DNA of 36,625 bases, taken from assembly GCA_017438865.1 (NCBI GenBank), contig JAFRUN010000015.1, positions 1 to 36,625 on the forward strand. The letters run 5' to 3'. The notes beneath the pieces were generated by a model. That model saw only the letters and a list, made by a program, of their open reading frames with translations, was not told the DNA's origin and made no database searches. Shown piece by piece: positions 12,952 to 28,095 of the stretch. A program made the translations under genes and the position numbers. Source of the DNA: Clostridia bacterium (GTDB taxonomy: Bacteria; Bacillota; Clostridia; Christensenellales; CAG-138). Numbering within the stretch: position 1 is the stretch's first letter; every line of letters starts with the position of its first letter.

Positions 12952-13695
12952 ATGTTCGGCAAAAAGAAACGCACCATCAGGGAGCAGCAGGAACGCATCA
13001 GCGCGCTCGAACAGCAGCTGGAAACGCTGACGGCGGACAACAAGCGTATGCTCGACCGCATCATCGACGTGGAACGCCGCGAGCGCGGCATCGGACGTGC
13101 GCTGAACGAAGCGACCGCCGCCGCCGACAATATGCTCGCAAACGCGAAAAGCAAGTCGGAGGAGCTGCTCGGGCAGGCGCAGACCGAATGCGATTCGATG
13201 CGCAGGGAAGCGGAACAGACCGTGGACGACGCCTACCGCAGCGCGCGGGAGATCATCCGCGAAGCGGAGGACGAAGGCGATCAGAAGCGCGACGAGATGC
13301 AGCAGACCATCGAACACTACGCGGCGCTGCTGAACGGCTACGACGCCATGGTACAGGAACAGATCCAGCTTGCGCAGGACGGTATGAAACGTCTTGCGGA
13401 GCTCGCAACGGCGCTGCATGAGGCGGTCCCCAAGCTCCTCAACTCCGACGGTTCTCCGCTGCCCGGTCTCAAAAAGCCGGAGGAAGAAGAACAGCCCGCG
13501 GAAGAAACGCCCGCGGAGCCCGAAGCGGAAGCGCCCGATCTCGAGCCGAGCCCGCTGAATCCGGTGCAGGAGAGATCCTTCGAGGAGCAGCTGTGGACGG
13601 TCGACCGGATCGCAAAGGATGACGCCGAAAAAGCGGCGTCCGACGTCGACAAGATCATCGACGAGATCCTCGCCGCTACGGAGGACGACGCATGA
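12952..13695 (+). CDS. Coiled-coil protein of unknown function, DivIVA-like character
   Basis: A 247-residue, mostly helical protein. The N-terminus MFGKKKRTIREQQERISALEQQLETL begins a leucine-heptad coiled coil that runs with breaks to about residue 160. Its middle (NEATAAADNMLANAKSKSEE, REAEQTVDDAYRSAREII) is rich in Ala/Glu/Arg like DivIVA and cell-division coiled coils. A short acidic Pro/Glu segment (178-205) and a final acidic helix follow. No membrane segment or enzyme motif is present. It sits between ruvB and a metallo-hydrolase gene and overlaps the latter as ATGA. I do not recognise a defined family; a scaffold or polarity role is only a guess. Confidence 0.7.
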   Translation: MFGKKKRTIREQQERISALEQQLETLTADNKRMLDRIIDVERRERGIGRALNEATAAADNMLANAKSKSEELLGQAQTECDSMRREAEQTVDDAYRSAREIIREAEDEGDQKRDEMQQTIEHYAALLNGYDAMVQEQIQLAQDGMKRLAELATALHEAVPKLLNSDGSPLPGLKKPEEEEQPAEETPAEPEAEAPDLEPSPLNPVQERSFEEQLWTVDRIAKDDAEKAASDVDKIIDEILAATEDDA

Positions 13696-14387
13696 AGCTG
13701 ACGCTTTTGGGCGTTTACGGTCCGTTCCCCGCGCCGGGAAAGGGCTGTTCCTCCTATCTGGTCGAGGACGGCGATACGCGGATCCTGCTGGACTGCGGCA
13801 GCGGTTCCTTAAGCCGGCTTCGCGCTTTGATCCCGGACCGGATGCGCCTCGATGCGATCGTGCTTTCCCACCTGCACGCGGATCACTGCGGAGAGATCGA
13901 TCTCTTCCGGTATCTCATGGAGTTCGGTCTGTGCGATGCGCCGGTCACGCTGTTTTCGCCGGAGACCGAACGGTTCACCTCCCCCGTGTTCCGTCCGGTC
14001 CGCACCTCCGACGGCTTTGAGGCAAAGGTCGGAACCATGTCGCTCCGCTTTACGGAGGTCCGCCATGCGGTGAAGACCACGGGCGTGCGCATCACGGACG
14101 GAAGCGGACGCTCCCTGTTCTACACGGGCGACAGCGCGTGGTTCGACGGCTTGGCCGACGCGGCAAGGAACGCCGATCTGCTGCTTGCGGACGCGTGTCT
14201 CGTCGACGAAACGAACGAAAAGGCGCTGCAGAATCACATGACCGTCGGGCAGGTCGTGCGGTTGAAAAAAGCGGCGCGCTGCGGACGCGCCGTGCTTACC
14301 CACCGTTTCGGCGGCGAAACGCATCTTCCCGCGCTTTCGGACGACGATTGCATATACGCGGAGGAAGGCGCCGTATTTGAAATCTGA
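13692..14387 (+). CDS. Metallo-beta-lactamase-fold hydrolase (RNase Z-like branch)
   Basis: A 231-residue metallo-beta-lactamase-fold protein. The metal motif is SHLHADHCGEIDLF with His60, His62, Asp64 and His65. FYTGDSAWF supplies the bridging Asp, and a C-terminal THRFGGETHLP may carry the last ligand. The layout resembles the small RNase Z or cyclic-phosphodiesterase-like branch rather than true RNase Z, which is longer with a substrate-binding arm. Substrate unknown. The ATG overlaps the coiled-coil stop by four bases, which ties it to the ruv operon. There is no obvious terminator after it; only a palindromic AGCGATCGCT at about 14398-14407. Confidence 0.85.
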   Translation: MKLTLLGVYGPFPAPGKGCSSYLVEDGDTRILLDCGSGSLSRLRALIPDRMRLDAIVLSHLHADHCGEIDLFRYLMEFGLCDAPVTLFSPETERFTSPVFRPVRTSDGFEAKVGTMSLRFTEVRHAVKTTGVRITDGSGRSLFYTGDSAWFDGLADAARNADLLLADACLVDETNEKALQNHMTVGQVVRLKKAARCGRAVLTHRFGGETHLPALSDDDCIYAEEGAVFEI

Positions 14388-14443
14388 AATGATGCGAGCG
14401 ATCGCTTCATGATAAAGGAATTTCAGGAAAGGAATATAGAACT

Positions 14444-16381
14444 ATGGCAAAAATGACAATCGAAGACGTCAACGTAGAAGGCAAGAGAGTTCTCGTGCGC
14501 GTGGACTTCAACGTTCCGCTCGCGGAGGACGGCACCGTTTCGGACGACAAGCGCATCGTTGCCGCGCTGCCGACGATCAAGTACCTTCTGGACCACAAGG
14601 CGAAGGTGATCCTTTGCTCGCACCTCGGCAGACCGAAGGGCGAAGTCAATCCGAAGTACTCTCTGGAACCCGTCGGTCAGCGCCTTGCGGAGCTGCTGCC
14701 GGATACGCGCGTATGGTTTGCGACCGACACGATCGGCGAAAGTGCAAAGACCGCGATCGCGGACATGAAGGAAGGCGAGATCGTCCTGCTCGAGAACACG
14801 CGCTTCCATAAGGAAGAGGAAAAGAACGATCCGGAATTCGCAAAGCAGCTTGCTTCCCTCGCGGACCTGTTCGTCTCCGACGCGTTCGGCACCGTGCATC
14901 GCGCGCATGCATCCACGGCGGGCGTTGCGGACTACATCCCCGCAGTCGCCGGATATCTCATCGGCAAGGAGCTCGGCGTGATGGGCGAAGCGCTTGAAAA
15001 TCCGGTCCGTCCGTTCGTGGCGATCCTCGGCGGCGCAAAGGTCGCGGACAAGATCGGCGTCATCAAGAACCTGCTCGCAAAGTGCGACAGTCTGATCATC
15101 GGCGGCGGCATGGCGTACACGTTCTTCAAGGCAATGGGCTACGAGATCGGCACCTCGCTGCTCGACGAAAACAGCATCGACCTCGCAAAGGACCTGATGG
15201 CGGAAGCCAAAGAACGCGGCGTAAACCTGCTGCTCCCGGTCGACACCGTGGTCGCAAAGGAATATGCGGCGGACGCCGAGCACAAAACGGTTCCCGCCGA
15301 CGCGATCCCCGAGGGCTGGATGGGCCTCGACATCGGCGAAAAGAGCTGCGAACTGTTCCGCAAGACGATCCTCGAAGCGAAGACCGTCATCTGGAACGGA
15401 CCGATGGGCGTGTTTGAATTCCCTGCGTTTGCGGAGGGTACCAAGAAGGTCGCCGAAGCGTGCGCGGACTGCGAAGGCACGACGATCATCGGCGGCGGCG
15501 ATTCCGCTTCCGCGGTGAAGAAGCTCGGCTTCGCCAAGAAAATGACGCACATTTCCACCGGCGGCGGCGCGTCGCTCGAGTTCCTCGAGGGCAAGGTCCT
15601 TCCCGGCGTGGCGGTTCTGAACGACAAACCGGAAGGCAGACGTCCGATCATCGCCGGCAACTGGAAGATGAACAAAACGCCCGACGAAGCGGTCGAGCTC
15701 GTCGAAGCGCTGATCCCGCTCGTGAAGGACGCGAAGTGCGAAGTCGTCGTCTGCCCGCCGTATGTGGATCTCTGCTGCGTGGGCAGGACGATCAAGGGTA
15801 CGAACATCAAGCTCGGCGCGCAGAACATCCATTGGGCGGAAAAGGGCGCGTTCACCGGCGAGATCTCCGCGGATATGCTGAAAGCACGCGGCGTGGAATT
15901 CGCGATCGTCGGTCATTCCGAACGCCGTCAGTATTTCGGCGAAACGGACGAGACCGTGAACAAGCGCGCGCTTGCCGCTCTGAACGCGGGTATCACCCCC
16001 ATCATCTGCGTCGGCGAATCGCTGGAGCAGCGTGAAGCGGGCGTGACGGACGAACTCGTTTCCGGCCAGACCGTTGCGGCGCTGAAGGACATGACGAACG
16101 CGCAGGTCGAATCCGTCGTGATCGCATACGAGCCCATCTGGGCGATCGGCACCGGCAAGACGGCGACGAAGGAAGACGCGAACGCGACCATCGGCGTGAT
16201 CCGCAAGGCGATCGCAGGCGTGTTCGGCGATGCGACGGCGAACAAGGTCCGCATCCAGTACGGCGGAAGCATGAATCCGAAGAACGCAAGCGAGCTCATG
16301 GCGATGCCGGAGATCGACGGCGGTCTGATCGGCGGCGCGAGTCTGAAAGCCGAAGACTTCTCGAAGGTGGTTCATTTCTGA
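14444..16381 (+). CDS. pgk-tpiA: Bifunctional phosphoglycerate kinase - triosephosphate isomerase fusion
   Basis: A 645-residue fusion of two glycolytic enzymes in one uninterrupted frame. Residues 1 to about 393 are phosphoglycerate kinase: [34 protein letters not shown] and GGGDSASA are all present. A linker of a few residues (NDKPEG) leads to triosephosphate isomerase at about 399-645, with catalytic Lys408 (AGNWKMNK), His491 (GHSERR) and Glu563 ([12 protein letters not shown]), and phosphate loop YGGSM. Both active sites look intact. The fusion is known from Thermotoga maritima. SD AGGAAAGGAA lies before the ATG. The stop overlaps gpmI by one base (TGATG), so three successive glycolytic activities are coupled. 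No separate gap or eno gene is in view. Confidence 0.96.
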
Positions 16382-17922
16382 TGAAGCCGATTACCGCATT
16401 GATCATCCTCGACGGCTTCGGCTATCGGGAAGAAAAAAAGTATAACGCGATCCTCACCGACGGTGCGAAGAACTTCATGCGCCTCTGGAAGACCTATCCG
16501 CACACGCTGATCGGCGCGAGCGGCATGGACGTCGGACTTCCCGACGGACAGATGGGCAATTCCGAAGTCGGACACACGAACATCGGCGCGGGACGGATCG
16601 TCTACCAGGAGCTGACACGCATCACGAAGGCGATTCAGGACGGCGATTTCTTTGAGAATCCCGCCTTCCTCGGCGCGATCGAAAACTGCAAGGCACACGA
16701 TTCCTCGCTGCATCTCATGGGGCTCTGCTCCGACGGCGGCGTGCACAGCCACCTCGAGCATCTTTACGCGCTCGTCGAGCTTGCGAAGCGGAACGGGCTC
16801 AAAAAGGTCTACGTCCATTGCTTCATGGACGGGCGCGACGTTCCCCCGTCCTCCGGCAAGGGCTACCTTGAACAGCTCGATGCAAAGCTCAAAGAGATCG
16901 GCTGCGGAAAGATCGCGACGGTCATGGGCAGATTCTACGCAATGGACCGCGACAACCGGTTCGAGCGCGTACAGCGCGCGTATGCCGCGCTGACCTACGG
17001 CGAAGGTTTTACCGCCTCCTCCGGCCCCGAAGCGATGCAGCTGAGCTACGATCGCGGCGACACCGACGAGTTCGTGCAGCCGACGGTCGTTCTGACCGAC
17101 GGCAGGCCCACCGCAACGATCGGACGCAACGACAGCGTGATCTTCTTTAACTTCCGTCCGGACCGTGCAAGAGAGATCTCGCGCGCGTACATTTTCGAGG
17201 ACTTCGACGGCTTCGAGCGCAGAAACGGCTTCTTCCCGCTGTACTACGTTTCGATGACGCAGTACGACAAGACGTTCGAGAACAACCTGCACGTCGCGTT
17301 CAAGCCGCAGTCGCTGAACAACACGTTCGGCGCTTACGTTGCGGACAACGGTCTGACGCAGCTTCGCATTGCGGAGACCGAAAAATACGCGCACGTCACA
17401 TTCTTCTTCAACGGCGGTGTGGAAGCGCCGAACGCGAACGAGGATCGCTGCCTCATTCCCTCGCCGAAGGTCGCAACCTACGATCTGAAACCCGAGATGA
17501 GCGCGTATGAAGTCGCGGCGGAGGCGAAAGCGCGGATCGAAAGCGGCAGGTACGACGTGATGATCCTGAACTTCGCAAACCCCGACATGGTCGGACACAC
17601 CGGCGTGATGGAAGCGGCGGTAAGCGCGGTCCATGCGGTCGACGAATGTCTCCATACGGTCGTGACCGCGATCCTCAAGACCGGCGGCCGCTGCATCGTG
17701 ACCGCGGACCACGGCAACTGCGAACTGATGTGGGATGAAGCGCAGAATGCGCCGTTCACCGCGCACACGACGCTGCCCGTGCCGTGCATTCTGGTCGACG
17801 ATACGCGTAAGGACGTCACGCTCCGCAAAGGCGGACGGCTCTGCGACCTTGCGCCGACGCTGCTTACGCTCATGGGACTGCCCGTGCCGCCGGAAATGAC
17901 GGGAAAATCGCTGGTAGAATAA
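16381..17922 (+). CDS. gpmI: 2,3-bisphosphoglycerate-independent phosphoglycerate mutase
   Basis: A 513-residue GpmI that interconverts 3- and 2-phosphoglycerate with two Mn ions. ALIILDGFGY opens the phosphatase domain. Ser61 in GNSEVGHTNIGAGR is the phosphorylated nucleophile. DGRDVPP and RFYAMDRDNR bind substrate, NFANPDMVGHTG and TADHGNCE bind metal. The length is standard. The start overlaps the fusion-gene stop by one base, so it is translated by re-initiation. It completes a pgk-tpi-gpmI glycolytic operon. A perfect hairpin-forming repeat lies 31 bp after its stop. Confidence 0.97.
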   Translation: MKPITALIILDGFGYREEKKYNAILTDGAKNFMRLWKTYPHTLIGASGMDVGLPDGQMGNSEVGHTNIGAGRIVYQELTRITKAIQDGDFFENPAFLGAIENCKAHDSSLHLMGLCSDGGVHSHLEHLYALVELAKRNGLKKVYVHCFMDGRDVPPSSGKGYLEQLDAKLKEIGCGKIATVMGRFYAMDRDNRFERVQRAYAALTYGEGFTASSGPEAMQLSYDRGDTDEFVQPTVVLTDGRPTATIGRNDSVIFFNFRPDRAREISRAYIFEDFDGFERRNGFFPLYYVSMTQYDKTFENNLHVAFKPQSLNNTFGAYVADNGLTQLRIAETEKYAHVTFFFNGGVEAPNANEDRCLIPSPKVATYDLKPEMSAYEVAAEAKARIESGRYDVMILNFANPDMVGHTGVMEAAVSAVHAVDECLHTVVTAILKTGGRCIVTADHGNCELMWDEAQNAPFTAHTTLPVPCILVDDTRKDVTLRKGGRLCDLAPTLLTLMGLPVPPEMTGKSLVE

Positions 17923-17953
17923 GCGGGACAATCAACGCCCCGCAAAGCGGACG

Positions 17954-17998
17954 ATGCAGGCATAAAACGATCCAAAGTTTTTCGTTTTATGCTTGCAT
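17954..17998. repeat. 17-bp inverted repeat between gpmI and secG
   Basis: The arms at 17954-17970 (ATGCAGGCATAAAACGA) and 17982-17998 pair over all 17 positions with one G-T wobble, around an 11-nt loop. It follows gpmI and may end its transcript, but only TTTCC follows, not a real T-run. The right arm contains the secG -35 box. Confidence 0.8.
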
Positions 17999-18021
17999 TT
18001 CCGAAAGGTGCGTGTTATAAT
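17993..18021 (+). promoter_or_regulatory. Sigma-A promoter of secG
   Basis: -35 TTGCAT (17993-17998), 17-bp spacer, -10 TATAAT (18016-18021) preceded by TGT, an extended -10. The -35 lies inside the right arm of the inverted repeat. The leader is about 25 nt with GGAGG at 18041. Confidence 0.82.
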
Positions 18022-18052
18022 CATTCCCGCAGATATTTTTGGAGGAAATGAT

Positions 18053-18313
18053 ATGGATATTTTGATGTGGATTGTGACCGGTATTCTGGTGCTTTCGTCG
18101 ATTCTGATGTGCGTGGTCGTGCTGATCCAGCAGACCAAGTCTTCCGGTCTCGGCGCAGCATACGGCGGCGACACCGTTTCTTTCTCGCAGCGCGGAAAGG
18201 CCGCAAGCCGTGAAGCAAAGCTGCAGAAGATCACCGTTGTTCTCGCGATCATCATCGCGGTCATGGCGATTGCACTTCTGTTGATCGCCAGATTCGCAGG
18301 CAAATCGATCTGA
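18053..18313 (+). CDS. secG: Protein-export translocase subunit SecG
   Basis: An 86-residue SecG with two transmembrane helices: residues 3-26 (LMWIVTGILVLSSILMCVVVLIQ) and about 60-80 (ITVVLAIIIAVMAIALLLIA). The family motif QQTKSSGLGAAYGG lies in the loop between them. SecG stimulates SecYEG translocation. The ATG at 18053 follows GGAGG at 18041-18045; an upstream in-frame ATG lies before the -10 box and is not usable. It has its own promoter and is followed by smpB and ssrA, a common secG-(rnr)-smpB-ssrA order, here without rnr. Confidence 0.95.
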   Translation: MDILMWIVTGILVLSSILMCVVVLIQQTKSSGLGAAYGGDTVSFSQRGKAASREAKLQKITVVLAIIIAVMAIALLLIARFAGKSI

Positions 18314-18333
18314 TCGGAACAAAACGAGCTTGC

Positions 18334-18366
18334 AACGGTGCATCATTCGATGCACCGTTTCTATTC
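18334..18366 (+). terminator. Intrinsic terminator after secG
   Basis: AACGGTGCATC and GATGCACCGTT form an 11-bp stem around ATTC, followed by TTTCTATT. It lies 20 bp after secG and just before the smpB ribosome site, so it may only partly stop transcription. It also argues against an upstream smpB start at 18338, which would be inside the stem. Confidence 0.75.
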
Positions 18367-18385
18367 TCTGAAAGGAGGGCGTGCC

Positions 18386-18853
18386 GTGCCGGTACACAAG
18401 GGAATCAAGATCGCCGCGCAGAACCGAAAGGCGCGTCACGATTATTTTATCGAAGACACATACGAGTGCGGGATCGTGCTGCAGGGGACCGAGGTCAAGT
18501 CGATCCGCAAGGGCGCACTGAACCTCAAGGACAGCTATGCGCAGGTCAAAAACGGGGAACTCTTTCTGATCGGCATGCATGTGAGCCCCTACGAGCAGGG
18601 CAACATCTATAACCACGATCCGTTCCGCACGAGAAAGCTGCTTGCGCATGCGCGCGAGATCCGAAAGCTCCTCACCCGGTCGCAGGCGGAGGGCTACAGT
18701 CTCGTTCCTCTGTCCGTCTATTTCAAGGACGGCAAGGTCAAGGTCGAGCTGGCGGTCGCCAAGGGCAAGAAGCTCTATGACAAACGCACGAGCATCGCGG
18801 ACCGCGACGCCGACCGCGACATCGAACGGAACATCAAAAAACAGTATCGCTGA
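18386..18853 (+). CDS. smpB: SsrA-binding protein SmpB
   Basis: A 155-residue SmpB, partner of tmRNA in rescuing stalled ribosomes. [34 protein letters not shown] is the beta-barrel start, [11 protein letters not shown] and [12 protein letters not shown] follow, and the basic tail [23 protein letters not shown] fits the mRNA channel. The start is GTG at 18386, 7 nt after AAGGAGGG; this gives the normal length. The gene lies 42 bp before ssrA, its functional partner, a frequent bacterial arrangement. Confidence 0.97.
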
Positions 18854-18895
18854 CGAAAGCCGGCATACCATATAAACAACCGCTTTATCGATCCC

Positions 18896-19251
18896 GGGGG
18901 CGAAATGGTTTCGACGGGGATCGCGGAAGCGGGATCAGCGAGCCGAAGCCCCGTGCTTCGTTAAAAACGGGAACTGTCTAAAATAACTGACAACAATCAC
19001 ACTCAACTCGCAGCTGCATAAACGCAGCTACGCGTCCGCCCGAGGAAACTTACCGCTTCGGAACCGGGCGTCATCAGGGTAGGGAACGAACCTGCGTAAG
19101 CTTTGCCGCAGGCCGGACTTCATGAAGCTACCGTAACGCAGAGCCCGTCGGTGGGCGCCGCGCGAGGGGAATCCCAAAACGCCGACTGCGCTCGGAGAAG
19201 ATCCTGCCAACGGATTTTCGGACGGGAGTTCGACTCTCCCCGCATCCACCA
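18896..19251 (+). ncRNA. ssrA: Transfer-messenger RNA (tmRNA)
   Basis: A 356-nt tmRNA. The 5' end GGGGGCGAAATGGTTTCGACGGGG is the conserved tRNA-like start, and the 3' end has T-arm GGGAG-TTCGACT-CTCCC, acceptor CGCATCC and encoded ACCA. The tag frame is GAC at 18989 to TAA at 19019-19021, coding DNNHTQLAAA after the tRNA-borne alanine; AAAATAACT precedes it, as usual for the resume site. The acceptor stem has one G-A mismatch and one wobble. The distal repeat at 20254-20273 would remove the mismatch. The resume codon is inferred by pattern. A terminator follows at 19255. Confidence 0.95.
19232..19251 (+). repeat. Proximal att-like repeat: ssrA 3' end
   Basis: GACTCTCCCCGCATCCACCA, the last 20 nt of the tmRNA gene. 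The same sequence with one change (A to C at position 13) occurs at 20254-20273. Repeats of an RNA gene's 3' end at island borders are the mark of integrase-mediated insertion, and ssrA is a well-known target. Confidence 0.75.
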
Positions 19252-19254
19252 TCT

Positions 19255-19300
19255 GAGAAACCTCTTTTGTCTACCAGGACAAAAGAGGTTTCTCTTTTAT
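19255..19300 (+). terminator. Intrinsic terminator after ssrA
   Basis: A 17-bp perfect stem (19255-19271 with 19278-19294) around TACCAG, followed by TTTTAT. It follows the present ssrA 3' end, inside the proposed island. Confidence 0.92.
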
Positions 19301-19310
19301 GGTTGGAGGA

Positions 19311-19339
19311 TTGACTCCCATTTGAGTGGTTTGTATAAT
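19311..19339 (+). promoter_or_regulatory. Near-consensus promoter of island gene
   Basis: -35 TTGACT (19311-19316), 17-bp spacer, -10 TATAAT (19334-19339). No TGn extension, unlike most promoters of this window. The transcript would start near 19346. Confidence 0.85.
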
Positions 19340-19379
19340 ACTGAGTATAGAAATGAAGGACTCGGAGGATCCGCGGAGC

Positions 19380-20060
19380 ATGAAAACAATCAGTGATATT
19401 CGAGTTTATCGCAGTTGTGTTGATAACACTGACGGTAATTCTCTCCCCGAAGATTTTAATAATAGTCGACTTAATCGTGTAATTCACAGAATCGTAATGA
19501 AACTCCGGGAGAAAGCCTTTTCTTTTGGCGAGTTCGATCACTTATATATTAACCTGACAACATGTGCCGTTCAAAACGGTTTTGCTCCCGCGAAAAGAAG
19601 CGCAGACAAGTACCACCCGTGGTTTCGATACTACGACGCGGAAGTAAGTAAATCCCTTTTTGATTCACTTGAGACAGAACAAAGCATTCCGTCCATAGTT
19701 GAAATCGTTGAACAAATGCTGCTGAAGTTCTTCTCCTCGCCTCGATTTGACGCAGAAGCGATTCATGCTTGTTTCTTTGAAGCGACGTCATTAGGCGAAA
19801 AAATGCTGGTGAAATTTAAAGAGAAAAGGTCGAATGAGGTCACAGCAACTGTGTATTTACGGTACTTGGACAGCGGGCTTTATGAACCGCTTTTGATGGT
19901 TTGCGGCTCAGACGATAAACTAATATTTGAAAAACAGCTGCCAAAATCAATAGTCCTTGATGCCTTCGGAGAAATCCGCATTGCCAAGAAGAGGGTTACG
20001 ATCTTGCCTCGGCGAAACAGCTATTCCAAAGAACGAAAGCCCATGGTATTTACGATATAG
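19380..20060 (+). CDS. Hypothetical protein, sole gene of the ssrA island
   Basis: A 226-residue soluble protein I do not recognise. It has no signal peptide, membrane segment or clear enzyme motif. Notable stretches are HLYINLTTCAVQNGF, KYHPWFRYYDAEV, IVEIVEQMLLKFF, TATVYLRYLDSGLYEPLLMV and a basic tail. The ATG at 19380 was chosen because GGAGGA lies about 10 nt upstream and because the promoter puts the RNA start at about 19346; the longer frame from 19326 starts inside the promoter. The gene is clearly more AT-rich than its neighbours and uses different codons, which points to transfer. It has its own promoter and terminator. A cargo role such as defence, toxin immunity or regulation is possible, but nothing in the sequence shows it. 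Confidence 0.75.
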   Translation: MKTISDIRVYRSCVDNTDGNSLPEDFNNSRLNRVIHRIVMKLREKAFSFGEFDHLYINLTTCAVQNGFAPAKRSADKYHPWFRYYDAEVSKSLFDSLETEQSIPSIVEIVEQMLLKFFSSPRFDAEAIHACFFEATSLGEKMLVKFKEKRSNEVTATVYLRYLDSGLYEPLLMVCGSDDKLIFEKQLPKSIVLDAFGEIRIAKKRVTILPRRNSYSKERKPMVFTI

Positions 20061-20121
20061 TATCGAATGTTTTTTGCGCGTTCTTTCTATAGTTTTGTAC
20101 CTTTTACGCGGTTTTAGACAG

Positions 20122-20160
20122 AAAGAAAACAGGGCATTCCGATGCCCTGTTTTCTTTTTC
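20122..20160 (+). terminator. Intrinsic terminator of island gene
   Basis: A 16-bp stem (AAAGAAAACAGGGCAT with its complement) around TCCG, followed by more T residues, about 60 bp after the stop. Strong. Confidence 0.93.
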
Positions 20161-20170
20161 CCGATAACAA

Positions 20171-20263
20171 GGGGAGAGTCGAACCGGCGCGGGGGTGAAT
20201 GAAGCCGCAGTGCGGCTTCAGAGCCGCGCCGTGACCGAGCCGCAGCGAGAGGAGACTCTCCCC
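20171..20263. repeat. Nested inverted repeats at distal island border
   Basis: Three arms nest: GGGGAGAGTC (20171-20180) with GACTCTCCCC (20254-20263); GGCGCGG (20186-20192) with CCGCGCC (20224-20230); GAAGCCGCA (20201-20209) with TGCGGCTTC (20211-20219). The left outer arm, extended to GGGGAGAGTCGAAC, is an inverted copy of the tmRNA T-arm (14 nt). I see no coding frame here. Confidence 0.7.
20224..20242 (+). repeat. 19-nt direct repeat, copy 1
   Basis: CCGCGCCGTGACCGAGCCG, identical to 20446-20464. Copy 1 is inside the nested palindrome at the island border. Confidence 0.8.
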
Positions 20264-20273
20264 GCCTCCACCA
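20254..20273 (+). repeat. Distal att-like repeat: displaced original ssrA 3' end
   Basis: GACTCTCCCCGCCTCCACCA, matching 19 of 20 nt of the ssrA end. With this sequence the acceptor CGCCTCC pairs with the tmRNA 5' GGGGGCG at all seven positions (one G-U). A terminator follows at once. Both facts suggest this was the ssrA end before insertion. Confidence 0.75.
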
Positions 20274-20274
20274 C

Positions 20275-20313
20275 GTCGCCGCGAACGTCGCATCGCTCGC
20301 GGCGACTTTTTTT
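20275..20313 (+). terminator. Intrinsic terminator, probably the original ssrA terminator
   Basis: GTCGCCGCGA (20275-20284) and TCGCGGCGAC (20297-20306) form a 10-bp stem with a 12-nt loop, then seven T. It begins 1 nt after the distal CCA, where an ssrA terminator should be. Confidence 0.88.
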
Positions 20314-20502
20314 GCTTTGCTGAAAAGTCACCGCTTGCCCTCTCCGTTGCGGCTCCTTTCCGCAGTCGATCACGCTTGCTTCAGCTGCTCGTTTGTAAAC
20401 GCACTCACAACGCTTCCGCTGCGCTACCAATCGCCTGCGGGATTCCCGCGCCGTGACCGAGCCGTGGAAAGAGTTGCGGTGTGCCGTCGGCGCTGCAAGC
20501 GG
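20314..20502. other. Non-coding stretch without recognised gene
   Basis: Together with 20061-20313 this makes a 480-bp region with no credible gene. It holds only copy 2 of the 19-nt repeat and short GC-rich motifs. The short frames present lack ribosome sites. Confidence 0.6.
20446..20464 (+). repeat. 19-nt direct repeat, copy 2
   Basis: CCGCGCCGTGACCGAGCCG, identical to copy 1 at 20224-20242, 203 bp apart. The flanks differ. Confidence 0.8.
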
Positions 20503-20533
20503 AAAAAAGAAGAACCCCGGCGATCTGCCGGGG
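20503..20533 (-). terminator. Intrinsic terminator of CotH-family gene
   Basis: CCCCGGC and GCCGGGG (20515-20521 with 20527-20533) around GATCT. On the minus strand a T-rich tail TTCTTCTTTTTT follows, 8 bp after the stop of the CotH-family gene. Confidence 0.9.
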
Positions 20534-20540
20534 CGTTTTC

Positions 20541-23500
20541 TTACGGATTGCTGTATTTGGCGATCAGGGCGTTCATCTCGTCCTTTGAGATCTTCAGTTC
20601 CTTGCGGATCTGTTCAAGCACGACCGTCGGCCGCTTTTCGACCTTGTTGCGCAGCGTCGCGACCTCGCTTTCCCATTTCGATATGGATTTCGGATGCCCC
20701 CAGCGTTTGATGTGCCGCTCCATTTCCGGCCGGTATTCCTCGACGACCTGATCGAACAGCTCCAGCAGCTTTTCCGAAGTGAATTTCGTCATCACGACTT
20801 CCACATAGCGTTCAAAGAACCGGTGCTTCCACTCCTCGTTGGTCTTCAGCGAAACGGTGAAGTAGAACTTGGTCAGCGATCCGTGCGCCGCCGCCACGCC
20901 CTCCTTGTTAAAGTAGACGTGCATCATGTCGCGGTCGTATTTGCTCATGAAGCAGTAGTCGAGGTCGTACAGGATCGGACGCCACTTGATCTTGTAATCG
21001 ACGGTGCGCCAGTATTTCTGGTTGAACGTGTCGGTCTCGAGCATGAACGTGCGGCAGATGACGTAATCCATGAACGCGTCGGCGTCGACCTTTTCGGTAT
21101 AGCTCTGATATGCGCTGTCGCTCGACAGCGTCTGCGCCTTGAAGATCTTCTTGAATTCGGTGTTGCTGCCCTTCATCGCGATCGAACCGTTGCGCATGAT
21201 GGTGTTGACCGTGTCGGGATCCACGCCGTAATGCGTGGCAAGGTACTTGGAATTCAGCTCCTCGTTGAAATCGTACACGCCGTAATATGTGCCGTTGATA
21301 TACAGCACGCAGCAGCGCGAATTGGCGCAGTCGACGTTCAGTCCCATGCAGGCGCGGGTGACGAACGTATCGCGCATGCGCGCCATGTCGTAATCCTGTC
21401 CCGCGTTGCGCAGCGCAAACGCGCCGAACTCGGTGAACTCGTACCCCGGGAAGAACGGATAGTCGACCGTCTTCATGCCGTACTCCGCCCGGAGTCCGAA
21501 CGTCAGCGATTTCTGCGCGTACGTCAGCGTGCCGCGGCCCTTTGCCTTGACGTCGCACGGGAACGAAGTGCCGATCAGCCCGTCCGGCTCGTAGTAATTC
21601 ACATAGCCCTTCCGTTCCTTGATGTTCTTATGTTCCCTGACCTTATAGACGGTGTTGAAATCGGTCGGATCCATCGCAAGGCACACGACCGGAACGGTAT
21701 GCGGCTCTTCAAACAGATAATGGAACGTGACGATCTCGCTCGGAAGCATGCCGTCGACATACGCGATCGCGCGGATGACGGCGTTCTTGGAGATCGTGAT
21801 CGGACCGGAATAGAGCGTCGAGCTTTTGCCCGGCTCGCTGCCGTTTGTCGTGTAATAGATTTGTGCGTTCGGACTTAACGAGGTGATCGAAAGATCGAAG
21901 GACTGCGTGTGATAGAGCGCGTTCTCCGAAAAGACCGGCATGGACGCGTACCCGCGGTATGCGGAATCGCTGTTCTTTTTGCCTTTCGTCTTGGTCGTGA
22001 AGAATACGCGGCTGATCTGATTGTTGCCCTCTACCCTGCCGCTCGTGACGCCGTTTTGCTGTACGCCGGTCTCGAAGATATCGCGGATGATGCCGTTTGC
22101 ATCGGAAAGATACAGTTTTTCACCGGAAGGGCTCACGCCGAACGGCGCGTCGCTGCTCTTGCGCTCGCCGTAGGACGCGGTCGCCTCGATCACGGCGTAG
22201 CCGTTCGCTTTCAGCGACAGGGATGAAATGCGGTATTTCTGCGGTTCTTCGAGCGAATCGCTCAGATACCAGCCGTCCAGCGAGACGGTGCTCTGCGAGC
22301 CGTTATACAGCTCGATCCAATCCTTTTCGCTGCTTCCCCGATCATGAATGGCGCATACCTCGGAGATGTATACGCCGTCAGATTGAAAAAAACCGATCGT
22401 CTCCGCCGTCTTTTCGCCGTGTCCGTTCGGCGCGCCGGGCGTCGGATACCGGTAATAGACCTGCTCGTTCGCCTCGTTCAGCCCGATCGAAACGTTGTCC
22501 GGAAGCTCCGGAACCGTGATCCAGTCGAGCCGTCCGGTCTGCGCGTTGTAGAGATACAGCGTTTCGCCCGTGCCGAGCGAAAAGCTCGCGTGAAGCTCGT
22601 TTGCGATGCCCGTCTTGCCGGACAGGAAGATGACGAGATACTGTCCGCCGGAGAGCGACATGCTTTCGGGCAGCGCCCATTTTTTGAGGTTCTTCGGATT
22701 GTCCGAAAGATACCAGTCGCGCAGCGAAACCGCTTGATCGGTCGAATTATAAAGCTCCACCCAGTCGCAGCGCTCGCCCTCGCAGTCCGCAATGCTGTAG
22801 GTATTCTTCGGAAGCGCCTCGCTGATGCGCAGCGAATCGGGCCGTTTTGCGTTCAGCGTCGGATCGACGGGTTCGTCGTCCTTCGGCTCGTCCGGATCGG
22901 GCTCCGGCGTTTCCTCCGGGCGGTACGGCGCCTTGTCGGTGATCTCCGTCGTATTCGCCGCGCCGGGCGTCGGCGTTTCGCAGAAGCCGAACGTGCCGTC
23001 CGCACGGCGTGCGTAGGTCACGTCCTTATACGGTATTTCCGGCATAACGACCGTTTCGAGTTCAAAGCCGTTCGGATCGAACAGATACAGCGTTTCGCCG
23101 TACCGGCTGACGCCGAGATCGACGCATACATGCCCGTCCTTCGTCGAGCAGTTTTTATCGCAGCAGAAGACGACAAGATAGCCGTTTGCGGGCAGTACGC
23201 CGGACAGGTTCGCATCGTCATAATCGCTCGGCTCGTCGCACAGCGTGAAGCCGTCGAGCGCGATATCCGCGTTCGTGGTGTTATGCAGCTCCACCCAGTC
23301 GCATTTGAGGCACCCGCCGCACGACAAAAGCGTGTTGCGCGCGGAGATCTCGCTGATCTCGACGCCGGTCATCGGTTCGGGCGCTTCGGGTTCCTTCACC
23401 TCCGGCTGGCGGTCGGAAATCTTTGTTGTGTTTGCGCTGCCGGGCGTGGGCGATTCGCAGTAACCGTAGGTTCCGTTTTCACGGCGCGCATAGGAGATGT

Positions 23501-23966
23501 CGCGGTGCAGCTCCGGCACGGCAAGCTCGTCGATCGTCTGCATATGCGGGTTGATCAAAACGAGGTCCTCCCCCGCCGACTTCAGCGAAAAGCCGAGGCA
23601 GATGGGGCTTTCGCCGTCCCACGCAAGCGTGTCGGTCTTTTCCATCTTGGTCGCAAGCAGCAAAAGGTATCCGTCCGCCGGAAGAACGATCTCCGGCATG
23701 GTGAACGCCTTGTCGGAATTTCTGATATTGTCGGTGATGCCCCAGCCGAGCAGATTGATCGGCTGATCCGATTCGTTGTGCAGCTCGATCCAGTCCGGCG
23801 AACCGTAATAGTCGTGCTCGTAGCTCTTGCCGTTGCTGGAAACGACCTCGCTGATTACGATCCCTTTCTTTGCGCCGTCGGAGCCCGTGCCGCACGCGGC
23901 AAGGGACGCCGACGTGCCGAGCACCAGAAGCCACGCAAGGATTTTTTTGAAATGTGCAGATCGCAT
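20541..23966 (-). CDS. Large lipoprotein: four lamin-tail domains, chitobiase-like domain and CotH kinase domain
   Basis: A 1141-residue surface lipoprotein. The signal peptide ends in lipobox LAAC (Cys25). Four lamin-tail domains lie at about 35-165, 198-325, 375-500 and 529-650; each has an ISE opening, a DW(I/V)EL(H/Y)N core and, in most, PTPG(S/A)(A/P)N at the end. A chitobiase/hexosaminidase C-terminal-like domain (IYYTTNGSEP, about 680-755) follows. Residues 756-1141 are a CotH kinase domain with LRNAGQDYDMARMRD, GVYDFNEELN and WRPILYDLDYCF. CotH phosphorylates spore-coat proteins; this type is exported, so it may act on surface or wall proteins, or only bind. The ATG at 23964-23966 is preferred over one eight codons upstream because GGAGGA is correctly spaced. 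It is monocistronic. Confidence 0.9.
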   Translation of the reverse strand: MRSAHFKKILAWLLVLGTSASLAACGTGSDGAKKGIVISEVVSSNGKSYEHDYYGSPDWIELHNESDQPINLLGWGITDNIRNSDKAFTMPEIVLPADGYLLLLATKMEKTDTLAWDGESPICLGFSLKSAGEDLVLINPHMQTIDELAVPELHRDISYARRENGTYGYCESPTPGSANTTKISDRQPEVKEPEAPEPMTGVEISEISARNTLLSCGGCLKCDWVELHNTTNADIALDGFTLCDEPSDYDDANLSGVLPANGYLVVFCCDKNCSTKDGHVCVDLGVSRYGETLYLFDPNGFELETVVMPEIPYKDVTYARRADGTFGFCETPTPGAANTTEITDKAPYRPEETPEPDPDEPKDDEPVDPTLNAKRPDSLRISEALPKNTYSIADCEGERCDWVELYNSTDQAVSLRDWYLSDNPKNLKKWALPESMSLSGGQYLVIFLSGKTGIANELHASFSLGTGETLYLYNAQTGRLDWITVPELPDNVSIGLNEANEQVYYRYPTPGAPNGHGEKTAETIGFFQSDGVYISEVCAIHDRGSSEKDWIELYNGSQSTVSLDGWYLSDSLEEPQKYRISSLSLKANGYAVIEATASYGERKSSDAPFGVSPSGEKLYLSDANGIIRDIFETGVQQNGVTSGRVEGNNQISRVFFTTKTKGKKNSDSAYRGYASMPVFSENALYHTQSFDLSITSLSPNAQIYYTTNGSEPGKSSTLYSGPITISKNAVIRAIAYVDGMLPSEIVTFHYLFEEPHTVPVVCLAMDPTDFNTVYKVREHKNIKERKGYVNYYEPDGLIGTSFPCDVKAKGRGTLTYAQKSLTFGLRAEYGMKTVDYPFFPGYEFTEFGAFALRNAGQDYDMARMRDTFVTRACMGLNVDCANSRCCVLYINGTYYGVYDFNEELNSKYLATHYGVDPDTVNTIMRNGSIAMKGSNTEFKKIFKAQTLSSDSAYQSYTEKVDADAFMDYVICRTFMLETDTFNQKYWRTVDYKIKWRPILYDLDYCFMSKYDRDMMHVYFNKEGVAAAHGSLTKFYFTVSLKTNEEWKHRFFERYVEVVMTKFTSEKLLELFDQVVEEYRPEMERHIKRWGHPKSISKWESEVATLRNKVEKRPTVVLEQIRKELKISKDEMNALIAKYSNP

Positions 23967-24026
23967 ATCCGATCCTCCGTCCGATCTCAAATCATGCGGA
24001 ACCGAAATCCCCCATGATGTTTATAC

Positions 24027-24055
24027 AGTATACCACGATTTGACCGTGTTGAAAA
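24027..24055 (-). promoter_or_regulatory. Promoter of CotH-family lipoprotein gene
   Basis: Minus strand: -35 TTTTCA (24050-24055), 17-bp spacer, -10 TATACT (24027-24032) preceded by TGG, an extended -10. The leader is about 54 nt. Confidence 0.75.
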
Positions 24056-24123
24056 GCCGCGAAACGTCCGCTTTCGCAAAATAGTTGTAAGACGATTGTA
24101 AACAATTTGAAAAGCGGGCGCGA

Positions 24124-25911
24124 TTATCCGTCGGATCGTCCGTCGAGCGCGTTTTTGAGCCGGTAGAGCTTGCTCTCCTCCAGCATGGCGACGACGTGTG
24201 TGCCGTCCGCCTCGTGCGATTCCGAAAGCACCGTGCCGATCTCGTGCAGCACGCGGATCGCATCGTACCGGTCGTACGGGATCACCAGCTCCACGCGCTG
24301 CTGCGTGCGGTTCAGCTCCGTTTCGATCCGTTCGAGCAGCGCCGGGATCCCCATGCCCGTCTTTGCGCTGATCGACACGGCGTTCTCGCGCTTCGATGGG
24401 ATCGCTTCGGGCAGATCGCACTTGTTGTAGACCTCGATGCACGGCGTATTGCCCGCGCCGAGTCCCTCCAGCACCTGTTCCGTCACGCGCATCTGCACCT
24501 CATAGTACGGACAGCCCGCGTCGACGACGTGCAGGATCAGGTCGGCGTCCTTCACCTCCTCGAGCGTGGAACGGAACGCCTGCACCAGATCGTGCGGCAG
24601 CTTGTTGATGAACCCGACGGTGTCCGAGAGCAGGCACGGCGTGCCGTTCGGCAGCGTGACGCCGCGCACCACGGGATCGAGCGTTGCAAACAGCTTGTCC
24701 TCGGCGAGCACGTCGCTGTTCGACAGCACGTTCAGAAGCGTACTCTTGCCGGCGTTCGTATACCCGACCAGTGCGACGACCGGCGTTTCGCTCTTCTTGC
24801 GCACGGAGCGGCGGATGCCGCGCTGTTTTTCGACCTCTTTGAGTTCCTGTTCAAGCTCATAGATGCGCCGGTGGATGCGGCGGCGGTCGATCTCGAGCTT
24901 TTTCTCACCGGGACCGCGCATACCGACGCCGCTTGCGCCTTGACGCGACATTGCCACGCCGACGCCCAGAAGCCGCGGCAGGCGGTATTTGAGCTGACTG
25001 AGCTCCACCTGCAGTTTGCCCTCGCGCGTGGTCGCGCGCGCGGCGAAGATATCGAGGATCAGCATCGTGCGGTCGATGACCGGCGTGCCGAGGATGCTTT
25101 CGAGGTTGCGGATCTGGATCGCGGTGAGCTCGTCGTCGAAGATGAAAACATCCGCTTCCGTCGCGCTGCCGATCAGTCGGAGCTCGTCCGCCTTGCCGGA
25201 ACCGACATAGGTGCCGTTGTCGACGGGGCGCTTACGCTGGCGCTCCATGTGCACGACGTTGACGCCCGCGGTGTCCGCAAGCGCCTTCAGTTCTTCGAGC
25301 GTGTCATAGCCGTCGTCGTTGTCGATTCCGACGAGCACCGCGCGCTCCGGCTCCGCCTGTGTGACCGCATACGCCGGCGCTTTCAGCCGGTTGTCCGCTT
25401 CGATCAGCGCGGAGAGCAGCGCGTCCTGCGGAAGACGGTCCGCGCGCATCGGTCCGTAGATCAGCGGTTTGCGCTCCTCGCCCTCCATCTCGCCGACGAA
25501 CGCGACGTACACCGACGTCGGCTGTCCGTCCTTCACGCCGACCGCCGCCATCGCGTCGAGCCGCATAGAGTTCAGCGTGCCGAGATCGACGTCAGAAAGG
25601 TATCCGCTGCCGTTCGGATGCGTGTGGATGCAGCGCACGCCCGCAAGCCGGTCCGCGTTGCGCACGAGACGCATATCGGGCATGGAAACCGTTGCGGCGT
25701 CGCCGATCGAAACGTCCCGCACCGCGCCGCTGCGCGACAGATAGACCGATATTTCGCGTCCGATGCGTCCGGTGAAATCGGCGAGCTTATAGAGCAGGTC
25801 CGCAGACGCAAACACGCCGCTCGGCTGCGTTTCATCGTACAGCGAGCGCATCTCGTTCAGTATGGTATCGCGGATGCCCGCGACGTTTCCGTTGATTTTC
25901 TTTTCTTCCAT
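24124..25911 (-). CDS. hflX: GTPase HflX with N-terminal JAMM-like extension
   Basis: A 595-residue HflX, a ribosome-binding GTPase that splits stalled ribosomes. After an N-terminal extension (1 to about 190), the HflX domain has GVNVVHMERQ and VGSGKADELR, the glycine-rich linker MRGPGEKKLEIDRR, then the G domain: Walker A GYTNAGKST, G3 DTVGF, G4 NKCD, G5 ISAKTG. The extension holds HTHPN at residues 96-100, then Ser106 and Asp109, matching the JAMM/MPN metal pattern HxHPx6SxxD. The ATG at 25911 lies 5 bp after the nnrE/nnrD stop and has no clear Shine-Dalgarno, so it may rely on coupling. A longer upstream frame runs into the epimerase gene and is rejected. Long HflX is common in Clostridia. 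Confidence 0.93.
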   Translation of the reverse strand: MEEKKINGNVAGIRDTILNEMRSLYDETQPSGVFASADLLYKLADFTGRIGREISVYLSRSGAVRDVSIGDAATVSMPDMRLVRNADRLAGVRCIHTHPNGSGYLSDVDLGTLNSMRLDAMAAVGVKDGQPTSVYVAFVGEMEGEERKPLIYGPMRADRLPQDALLSALIEADNRLKAPAYAVTQAEPERAVLVGIDNDDGYDTLEELKALADTAGVNVVHMERQRKRPVDNGTYVGSGKADELRLIGSATEADVFIFDDELTAIQIRNLESILGTPVIDRTMLILDIFAARATTREGKLQVELSQLKYRLPRLLGVGVAMSRQGASGVGMRGPGEKKLEIDRRRIHRRIYELEQELKEVEKQRGIRRSVRKKSETPVVALVGYTNAGKSTLLNVLSNSDVLAEDKLFATLDPVVRGVTLPNGTPCLLSDTVGFINKLPHDLVQAFRSTLEEVKDADLILHVVDAGCPYYEVQMRVTEQVLEGLGAGNTPCIEVYNKCDLPEAIPSKRENAVSISAKTGMGIPALLERIETELNRTQQRVELVIPYDRYDAIRVLHEIGTVLSESHEADGTHVVAMLEESKLYRLKNALDGRSDG

Positions 25912-25916
25912 ATTGT

Positions 25917-27359
25917 TTATTGTACCATATCGATCACGTCGCTTGCAAGCAGCGCGCGTTCTCCGAGGAGTTTCATCGCGCGGTCCGCGCTCGTTCCCAA
26001 AAGATACGCGCCCGCCCGCGCCGCGTCGAAGGCGGAAAGTCCCTGTGCGAGCAGCGCGGTGACGAGCCCCGTCAGTACATCGCCGCTGCCGCCCTTCGCC
26101 AGGCCGGGGTTCCCGAACGTCAAAAACGCCGTGCGTCCGTTTGCGTGCACCAGCGTGGTCGCGCCCTTCAGAAGCGTTGTGCACGGAAACGCTTTGACCG
26201 CGCCGAGCGGATCGGAAAGAACGTCCGGAACGGTGCAGTCCAAAAGCCGCGCCATCTCGCCCGCGTGCGGCGTCAGAACGACGTTTTTATGCAAAAGACG
26301 CAGGAGCGATCGCTCTTTTGCCGTCTGATTCAGCGCGTCCGCGTCCAGCACGAGCTTCGTTCCCGATCTGAGCGCCGCTTCGATCACCGGAAGAAGATTT
26401 CCCTTTCCTCCGCCGCTTCCCACGGCGATCGCCTGTTTGTTCTCCATCGCCGCGATCGCTCTTCCGGCGGCGGCTTCGCACCAGTCGTCCGTGCCGGTCG
26501 GGATCGTGATCGCTTCCGGAACCGCCGCGAAAAACGGGCGCACCGGATCCGGCGTGCACACGGACACGAGTCCCGCCCCGCCGCGCAAAGCCGCGCGCGC
26601 CGAAAGCAGCGCGGCGCCCGGATAGGTCTTCGAACCCACGCACAAAAGCGCATGCCCGTTCATTCCCTTGTGTGAATCGAACGGCCGCTTCGGCAAAAGC
26701 GCTGCAATTTCGGCTTCCTCCTGATAAAAAAGCTCCGGCTCGCCTTCGTCTGCGTACAGCGGCTGTACCGTGACCGTCCCGCAAAGCGCGCGTCCCTGTC
26801 CGAGAAGCATGCCCGTCTTTTTCGCCTGCATCGTGACGGTTCGCGCCGCATGCACCGCAGCGCCCATGATTTCACCGCTGTCGGCGTGCAGTCCCGATGG
26901 GATGTCTGCGGAAACGATCGACTTGCCGCTTTCGTTCATCCGCCCAATCAGATCCCGCACCGCGCCCTCGACCGGACGGTTCAGCCCGACGCCGAACAGC
27001 GCGTCGATCAGAATTTCATGTTCCTCCGGCTGCCACTCCGCAAAGACCGGAACGCCGTCCGCCCTTGCCGCGTCGAGATAATGCGCCGCATCGGGCGTGC
27101 AGTTTTTTTCGTCGCCGGAAAGAACGATCCGCGCGTCGACGCCTTCCCGTTTGAGAAGCCATGCGGCGGCGATCCCGTCCCCGCCGTTGTTGCCGGTGCC
27201 CGAGATCGCGGTCACGGTTTCGTTGTTTTTTCGCAATGCCTTTACGGCGGAAACGATCCCCTCCGCGGCGGTATGCATCAGCGAAAGCGACGAAACGCCC
27301 GACGCGATGACCTCGCGGTCGCGTTCTTTTGCCTGCGCCGCCGTTACGATTCGCTCCAT
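25917..27359 (-). CDS. nnr: Bifunctional NAD(P)H-hydrate epimerase and ADP-dependent dehydratase
   Basis: A 480-residue fusion that repairs hydrated NADH and NADPH. The N-terminal epimerase domain (1 to about 205) has AISGTGNNGGDGIAAA and DALFGVGLNR. The C-terminal ribokinase-like dehydratase domain (about 225-480) has GSGGGKGN, LDADALN, LTPHAGEMARLL, LLKGATTLV and the catalytic GLAKGGSGDVLTG. Both halves look complete. It overlaps recX by 16 bp at its 5' end and precedes hflX by 5 bp, so the three are an operon. Confidence 0.95.
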   Translation of the reverse strand: MERIVTAAQAKERDREVIASGVSSLSLMHTAAEGIVSAVKALRKNNETVTAISGTGNNGGDGIAAAWLLKREGVDARIVLSGDEKNCTPDAAHYLDAARADGVPVFAEWQPEEHEILIDALFGVGLNRPVEGAVRDLIGRMNESGKSIVSADIPSGLHADSGEIMGAAVHAARTVTMQAKKTGMLLGQGRALCGTVTVQPLYADEGEPELFYQEEAEIAALLPKRPFDSHKGMNGHALLCVGSKTYPGAALLSARAALRGGAGLVSVCTPDPVRPFFAAVPEAITIPTGTDDWCEAAAGRAIAAMENKQAIAVGSGGGKGNLLPVIEAALRSGTKLVLDADALNQTAKERSLLRLLHKNVVLTPHAGEMARLLDCTVPDVLSDPLGAVKAFPCTTLLKGATTLVHANGRTAFLTFGNPGLAKGGSGDVLTGLVTALLAQGLSAFDAARAGAYLLGTSADRAMKLLGERALLASDVIDMVQ

Positions 27360-27838
27360 GCTTCCTCCTCCGAAAGCGCTGCCTCCAGCGCCTTTCTCGA
27401 AACCTCATAGGAAAATCCGCGCGCGATCAGCCGCGAAAGCACGCGCTCCCGGCGCTTCTCCGGTTCGAGCGAAGAAAACTGCCTTGCAAACTTTTCTGCG
27501 ATCGCTCGCGCGTTTCCGGCTTCCTCGTCCGCGCCGACCGCATCCAGCGCGGCGTTGATATACGCGTCGTCCACGCCGTGTCCCTTGAGCTGTTCCCACA
27601 GATGACGGCGGCTCACGGGCTTCGACGCAAGGCGCGTTTCCACAAACCGCCGCGCATAGCGTTCGTCGTTCAAAAGCCCGAGCTCGACGAGGCGGCCGAC
27701 CGTTGCGTCGACGTCCGCTTCGCCGAATTCCTTTCCGTCGAGATACGCCTGCATCTCCGATACCGTACGGTCGCGTGCCGTGAGATACTTCATCGCGTAT
27801 TCCATCGGCGAAAGCGATTTCTTCGGCTGCTCTTTCAT
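27344..27838 (-). CDS. recX: Regulatory protein RecX
   Basis: A 164-residue RecX, which modulates RecA filaments. Three-helix repeats are visible: AMKYLTARDRTVSEMQAYL, VGRLVELGLLNDERYARRFVETRL, and RHLWEQLKGHGVDDAYINAAL, with a last repeat KRRERVLSRLIARGFSYEVSRKAL. Length is normal. AGAGGAG precedes the ATG at 27836-27838. It is the first gene of the recX-nnr-hflX operon; recA is not in the window. Confidence 0.92.
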   Translation of the reverse strand: MKEQPKKSLSPMEYAMKYLTARDRTVSEMQAYLDGKEFGEADVDATVGRLVELGLLNDERYARRFVETRLASKPVSRRHLWEQLKGHGVDDAYINAALDAVGADEEAGNARAIAEKFARQFSSLEPEKRRERVLSRLIARGFSYEVSRKALEAALSEEEAWSES

Positions 27839-27868
27839 CGCGTGCTCCTCTTTTCATTCGTTGGAAAC

Positions 27869-27897
27869 AGTATAACACATCTGAGCCGATCTGAAAA
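27869..27897 (-). promoter_or_regulatory. Promoter of recX operon
   Basis: Minus strand: -35 TTTTCA (27892-27897), 17-bp spacer, -10 TATACT (27869-27874) preceded by TGT. The same -35 and -10 sequences as the CotH-family promoter. Leader about 24 nt. Confidence 0.75.
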
Positions 27898-28095
27898 GAA
27901 ATCCCGAAAAATCTGCAACCTTTTGTTCTTCTCCCGCGTCTTACTTTATGAGAAGCGCGCTGCGCGGCTTTTTCCCGCCGTATGTATAAAAGATGTGCCT
28001 AAAATGTAACTTATTAGTAAATGCTTTTCGAAAAGGATGGTTTTTTCGGAAAAAGTGTGTAAAATGAAAGCATCAATGAAGAAGGAAACGAATCT

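Follow-up and report, generated by a model that had tools for sequence, protein, structure and literature searches.

Integrons are the textbook system for the capture of single genes, and they need a platform. The repeats known as RtT RNA (RF00391) lie as 178-bp tandem units behind tyrV/tyrT of E. coli. Islands at transfer RNA (tRNA) and transfer-messenger RNA (tmRNA) genes, as described for ssrA of Dehalococcoides (PMC3146451), insert site-specifically at the 3' end of the RNA gene, accrete in tandem and leave displaced 3' fragments nearby. The present analysis concerns a 36,625-nt stretch of a Clostridia bacterium (hereafter the window; contig JAFRUN010000015.1 of assembly GCA_017438865.1, overall guanine-plus-cytosine (GC) content 0.589), in which about 1 kb of DNA lies between the tmRNA gene and a second copy of its 3' end. 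Positions 19252-20120 of this interval probably constitute one mobile gene cassette, a member of a family that would insert immediately behind the terminal CCA of a tRNA or tmRNA gene by means of a recombinase acting in trans. Comparison of sequences makes evident the cassette borders, the family and its anchors, the stacking, the near-identical cassettes across anchors and genera, and the RtT-like architecture of the unit that follows. The arrangement works like an integron array and sits like a tRNA island, but fits neither, and possibly represents a categorically new class. No description of such cassettes was among the matches listed from the open-access literature.

The tmRNA gene (ssrA; 18896-19251, plus strand; ARAGORN, and Rfam RF00023 at 164.6 bits), which encodes the tag DNNHTQLAAA, is the anchor of the array. 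Its present 3' end (19232-19251, plus strand, with CGCATCC) recurs, with one mismatch in 20 nt and at a spacing of 1022, as a displaced 3' end (20254-20273, plus strand, with CGCCTCC), which is followed by one base and then by a terminator (20275-20313, plus strand) made of a hairpin with 13-nt arms, 92% complementary, and a T run. The tmRNA 5' end, GGGGGCG, pairs with the displaced CGCCTCC, counting the usual G3.U70 wobble, and has a G4-A69 mismatch in the acceptor with the present CGCATCC. An earlier sequence-only reading of the window had pointed out the repeat, the pairing and the terminator, and all three are exactly where it placed them. It had further taken the whole interval for a single AT-rich island that lacked an integrase and was either a decayed remnant or moved in trans. 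Indeed, there is no integrase in 19252-20273, and the interval is AT-rich in its first part (19252-20120, 869 bp, GC 0.418), but not in the remainder (20121-20273, 153 bp, GC 0.614). The idea of a single island does not survive comparison with a relative of the same genus, genome G004, which aligns to the window over about 14 kb in total (13590-19251 at 94.1% and 20119-28414 at 92.9%). The alignment borders, 19251 and 20119, coincide with the cassette (19252-20120, plus strand) to within 2 bases; only this cassette is absent in G004, and a unit of about 150 bp that ends in a displaced tmRNA end is retained. That G004 is without just the first part shows a genuine insertion or deletion rather than a chance repeat; given that it has the unit without the 869-bp gene part, the interval holds two stacked elements.

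These observations bear directly on the proposal that 19252-20273 is one mini-island, with the 20-nt repeat as its attachment site, which brought CGCATCC into the tmRNA. The better pairing of the displaced copy with the tmRNA 5' end speaks for it, as does the existence in another relative, G009, of the predicted empty-site joint (CGCCTCCACCA followed by the cgtcgccgc... terminator, with no unit between). This joint is not proof of an orthologous empty site, because the terminator module recurs and the window's next gene is not found in G009 within 16.6 kb downstream; the joint that had been predicted is thus present, while the orthology of the site is not established. That the distal copy is a displaced tmRNA end is borne out both by the G009 joint and by G004, in which the displaced copy, GACTCCCCCCGCCTCCACCA, is identical letter for letter to the end that the tmRNA has in G009 and several other relatives and differs from the end of G004's own tmRNA, GACTCTCCCC.... 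Against a single mini-island stand G004 itself, with its unit and displaced end but no 869-bp part, and four genomes with the opposite order: in G104, G076 and G111 the RNA gene is followed first by a unit, the cassette starting after the CCA of that unit's displaced 3' copy, and in G011 the cassette likewise lies behind the unit, whereas in the window it lies before it. A single mini-island is therefore very improbable. Since both orders occur, a cassette can follow either a genuine or a displaced CCA. The tmRNA ends of same-genus relatives, for which the sequence-only reading had proposed a check, agree with its expectation: among 22 relatives, 5 gave no complete tmRNA, and the ends of the other 17 all read CGCCTCC (17/17) and never CGCATCC. 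The A of CGCATCC is consequently private to the window's genome among those seen, and it may have been brought by an element, or may be a private point mutation or an assembly error.

The cassette of the window begins directly after the tmRNA CCA. Its left end is a terminator hairpin with a 17-bp perfect stem (19255-19294, plus strand), followed by a promoter-like stretch recognized by eye (TTGACT, 17 nt, TATAAT; 19311-19339, plus strand), by a cargo open reading frame (ORF; 19380-20060, plus strand) of 226 aa from the ATG at 19380 or 244 aa from a GTG at 19326, and by a right end (20063-20120, plus strand) of two degenerate direct repeats about 30 bp apart, finishing in ACA (20118-20120). The same layout characterizes a whole family: a terminator directly after a CCA, usually one gene, and a right end of about 57 bp, in which a direct repeat occurs twice at a period near 31 bp and which ends in ACA or CCA. 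Because the gene part of the window has both ends of this widespread family, it is not the decayed remnant of a larger island. The cargo ORF itself has no Pfam or PADLOC family, its best NCBIfam match (expect value, E, 0.18) falls far under the cut-off, and no homologue was found in 60 relatives; a single-sequence structure prediction was too poor for use (mean predicted local distance difference test score 42.6).

Other tmRNA arrays also have this right end, both between their genes and behind them. Among 23 genus genomes its exact double motif occurs in one (G011) and one half of the motif, with up to 3 mismatches, in five; given these small numbers, a profile (R1) was used, built from 17 right-end sequences, the window's included. 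At E<=1e-4 this profile matches 31 of 103 family genomes, in four genera (g1, g9, g13, g48), and 13 of 396 genomes that sample the order evenly, three of the 13 being outside the family; a further 9 family genomes reach no better than 1e-4 to 0.01, often with partial matches, and these were not relied on. Of 40 right ends, 38 finish in [AC]CA (ACA in 33, CCA in 5) when, by a lenient rule, the final [AC]CA within 20 nt is counted. Closed cassettes are 0.4-2.9 kb long, often stand in tandem in the same orientation and mostly carry single genes; in 30 of the 33 closed cassettes with an ORF of at least 80 aa the longest ORF is on the cassette strand, the 34th cassette having none. A Pfam scan of 48 of 53 cassette ORFs (the other 5 are short or antisense) yielded 14 GNAT acetyltransferases, NUDIX, an APH-family kinase, an AadA_C match, a Cass2 (integron-associated) domain, methyltransferases, isochorismatase, beta-lactamase-fold hydrolases and others, and left 12 ORFs without a family. 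Two candidate properties of the right end were discarded: an attC-like hairpin, as the consensus fold of the 17 right ends has 0 pairs, and an occurrence in viral contigs, where two pattern matches were read as lying inside phage coding DNA and are irrelevant.

The anchors of these cassettes are diverse. A same-strand tRNA lies upstream at 13 of 20 right-end loci, chosen among the better or tandem matches, and three of the other seven (L152, L189, L200) lie on contigs that end less than 1 kb upstream. In a further set of 13 loci, two of which repeat earlier ones, such a same-strand tRNA is present within 1.5 kb upstream in 6 of the 11 distinct loci. By anticodon, the anchors comprise ten tRNA species (Ser gga/cga, Leu taa/cag, Tyr, Gln, Val cac, Ala, Trp, Asn) and tmRNA. 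In the junctions that were printed out, the CCA of the RNA gene is followed directly by a hairpin, often TCAAAGAAACCTCTTTTGTCT..., and in L204 and L205, loci from genomes of two other bacterial families, the cassettes likewise start at the CCA, behind tRNA-Ser and tRNA-Leu, respectively. Behind right ends, 30 of 37 junctions fold at -18 kcal/mol or lower within 55 nt, compared with 110 of 1000 random places; with 13 tRNA junctions included, the count is 43 of 50. Inside the array of L194, the sequence right before a cassette left end (about 3030-3063) resembles a displaced tRNA 3' end and finishes in GCCA. Gut-1 RNA (RF01706) was seen near two arrays (L102 3063-3135 and L194 48-120).

Near-identical cassettes at different anchors carry the argument for mobility. 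A cassette with a DUF402 gene is found behind the tmRNA of G011 and behind a tRNA-Ser of G078, a genome of another genus, with 98.6% identity over 700 bp that stops at the CCA on the left and at the ACA on the right, and a tmRNA of G078's genus (from G030) is only 73% identical to that of G011. Of the evidence for a mobile, exactly bordered unit, this pair is the strongest. A cassette with a lipoprotein-like gene is similarly present behind tRNA-Gln in G007 and tRNA-Leu in G011 (97.2% over 1194 bp), its right border being exact and its left identity running into the preceding right end in both, and one with an Rce1-like gene occurs behind the tmRNA of G006 and tRNA-Ala of G011 (88.8% over 858 bp). 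It might be argued that homologous recombination between conserved ends swaps cassettes, with no dedicated recombinase acting today. The ends of the window cassette are indeed conserved, the left end being up to 97% identical (over 38 nt, to that of L189) and the right end 87.5% identical over 56 nt (to that of L192, at tRNA-Ala in G011, a sequence outside the profile), and tandem arrays give further homology. Homologous exchange leaves unexplained, however, the first insertion at a cassette-free RNA gene, the exact CCA border and the stacking, and as a full account it has a slim chance.

Insertion by an enzyme in trans is the reading that we prefer, and it would proceed as follows. A recombinase encoded elsewhere would bind the right end of the cassette and join the ACA or CCA at its border to the CCA of the RNA gene, probably with a circular cassette as the intermediate, as in integrons but without attC or attI. 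The first terminator of the cassette would take over from the one that is displaced, such that the RNA gene would still end properly, and the ACA or CCA of the right end would recreate the landing place, such that cassettes could stack in tandem. In the window, an older RtT-like unit would have displaced the original tmRNA end first, and the cassette would then have landed in front of it.

Several observations weigh against this account. No mobilizing enzyme was found, transposase families not having been searched genome-wide: in 30 of the 31 positive genomes (G073 excluded) no PF00589 match lies closer than 5 kb to a right end, and the same holds for PF00239 in the genus genomes. The conserved ends also make exchange by homologous recombination possible. 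The window's genome holds one right end only. At four loci (L186, L194, L197, L203) more than 1 kb is available upstream, yet no complete tRNA is present. Seven of the 37 junctions behind a right end are without a strong hairpin, and little can be read from the 13 hairpins that adjoin tRNA genes, because a tRNA has a terminator anyway. Two of the 40 right ends are without [AC]CA, the rule being itself lenient. The Rce1-like copy in G006 has an incomplete right end, and most other cassette pairs that were compared have gene bodies in common, not ends. Finally, the genomes are drafts, most or all of them from metagenomes, and the window's own is about 80% complete.

The question of what enzyme might be responsible is shared with an alternative that overlaps partly with the preferred reading, because both need an enzyme in trans: the cassettes could be ordinary tRNA/tmRNA islands without an integrase, decayed or satellite, which a full-length island moves through its tyrosine or serine integrase. 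Precedent exists in the tandem ssrA islands of Dehalococcoides, which are bounded by a 20-bp ssrA repeat (PMC3146451), and a tyrosine recombinase fragment lies near the tRNA-Cys array of G001 (L090 3968-4561). Such islands, however, duplicate a long part of the RNA gene, whereas a cassette of 0.4-2.9 kb repeats 3 bp only, its far end offering no more of the RNA gene than ACA or CCA, and the 20-nt displaced copy belongs to the RtT-like unit. Moreover, one right end serves ten tRNA species with differing 3' sequences, no full-length, integrase-bearing version is present in the loci examined, and, unlike in islands, there is no integrase gene in the window cassette and no recombinase or transposase among the 48 of 53 scanned ORFs of cassettes. 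Ordinary islands are therefore an unlikely explanation. The recombinase match nearest to a right end is 7.0 kb away (G113:C7; coordinates compared by eye). The sole PF00589 match in the window's genome is a Xer-like protein, XerS-like but below the cut-off, whose gene neighbours we take from their sequence to be RNase H and LexA. Adjacent tyrosine recombinase genes occur in three genomes with right ends, away from those right ends (G105:C8:36788-38802, G110:C50:24300-26305, G076:C19:233028-235029), and are possible candidates for enzymes acting in trans.

A transposase might likewise have placed the cassettes beside tRNA genes, as non-autonomous transposons whose right end is a set of repeated transposase binding sites. 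Tn7-like elements, which we take to have repeated sites at one end, and IS200/IS605-like elements with a single-strand transposase, which presumably have a hairpin near the border and make no target duplication, come to mind; the two direct repeats of the right end, with their period near 31 bp, and the left-end hairpin a few bases from the border fit such elements. In contrast to them, there is no transposase in the cassette ORFs scanned (without a genome-wide transposase search), the right-end repeats have no matching second end at the left, and no target duplication exceeds 3 bp. A placement of this kind is quite unlikely.

Compared with integron cassettes, including clusters of attC sites lacking integron integrases (CALINs), the cassettes described here are similarly small, mostly single-gene, tandem and in the same orientation, each with a conserved 3' site; they carry comparable cargo (GNAT, APH, AadA_C, Cass2) and form arrays without an adjoining integrase. 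They differ in that the right end is without an attC-like fold, in landing at the CCA of many tRNA and tmRNA genes rather than at attI, in starting with a terminator and, by eye, in having a promoter-like stretch in the window and in others, as well as in having no PF00589 or intI neighbour within 5 kb in 30 of 31 positive genomes, which are incomplete and in which one protein was subtyped. We tentatively suggest, at somewhat less than even confidence, an undescribed class that would combine integron-like capture with the universal CCA as a set of genome-wide landing places, no dedicated platform, an enzyme in trans (a recombinase or transposase) with a new specificity, and a terminator brought by each cassette. 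Cassettes of single genes, with cargo like that of integrons, appear to pass from one genus of gut Clostridia to another via tRNA and tmRNA 3' ends, the designation as gut Clostridia resting on record titles (the records with the unit's core pattern are nearly all of uncultured Clostridia or Bacillota, many from ruminant gut). If this is true, every tRNA gene can serve as a platform, with the terminator apparently replaced at each stacking. APH-, AadA_C- and acetyltransferase-like genes of gut bacteria may travel on such cassettes, and the signature of CCA, terminator, gene and right end provides a handle for finding the enzyme.

The second element of the interval, at 20121-20273 (plus strand), comprises a terminator hairpin (20122-20157, plus strand), an inverted copy of the tmRNA T-arm (GGGGAGAGTCGAAC; 20171-20184, plus strand), a core hairpin with conserved GGTGAATGA, TCAGAGCC and GTGACCGAG (20185-20253, plus strand) and the displaced tmRNA 3' end. 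It is RtT-like in architecture, having like RtT a spacer, an inverted tRNA T-arm copy, a structured core and a tRNA 3'-end copy, and being tandem in relatives, but it is not a member of RtT RNA: the window unit reaches 20.6 bits with RF00391, whose cut-off is 45 and which gives the E. coli copies 132.9-137.5, and the units occur in Clostridia, behind tmRNA, tRNA-Ser and tRNA-Val genes, a related core lying at tRNA-Cys. No known RNA family scores above the Rfam cut-off in the unit, and its core has no match in viral contigs. Behind the tmRNA of the genus the unit is single or tandem, with two copies in G003, two in G006 and one in the window. The core pattern is present in 17 of 103 family genomes and a reversed control pattern in none. 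A search in the fetched loci for the inverted T-arm of an RNA gene within 170 nt downstream (13 nt, up to 2 mismatches) succeeded for 10 of 96 RNA genes (8 tmRNA, 1 tRNA-Ser, 1 tRNA-Val), whereas the inverted T-arm of another gene was found in 10 of 1405 control pairings. In G003 and G004 the inverted arm is, by reading, closer to the upstream than to the downstream 3' end, which is what the arrival of every unit together with a tmRNA end of its own would produce. More broadly, this suggests that the RtT repeats of E. coli may belong to a wider class of units with copies of tRNA 3' ends.

Hairpins related to the unit are also seen elsewhere. The core hairpin recurs in other Clostridia with other outer arms and no tRNA in the locus (L107, L110, L112, L116, L118, L123, L131, L132), and its stem letters co-vary by eye, as in a dispersed hairpin family. 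Conversely, 3' of the tmRNA in G018 (L034) the same outer architecture, with an inverted T-arm and a T-arm copy that both match this tmRNA, encloses a different inner hairpin. Arrays of related units lie behind tRNA-Cys or a displaced tRNA-Cys 3' end (L039 1-2180, L076 1-1500, L081 4690-5130); these contain GTGGACACAAAGTGGACAC-like repeats, which may be integrase arm sites of another element, and two of them (L039, L076) contain what we take to be RHS-type repeat fragments.

Downstream of the interval, the next gene (20541-23990, minus strand) is presumably CotH-like, and a homologue of it stands beside the variable interval in 6 of 15 relatives examined. The terminator module that follows the displaced tmRNA end (20274-20313; CGTCGCCGCGAA...) is shared in the window's genome with tRNA-Pro and tRNA-Leu (L004, L006), and given its presence at three RNA 3' ends, tRNA terminators look interchangeable.

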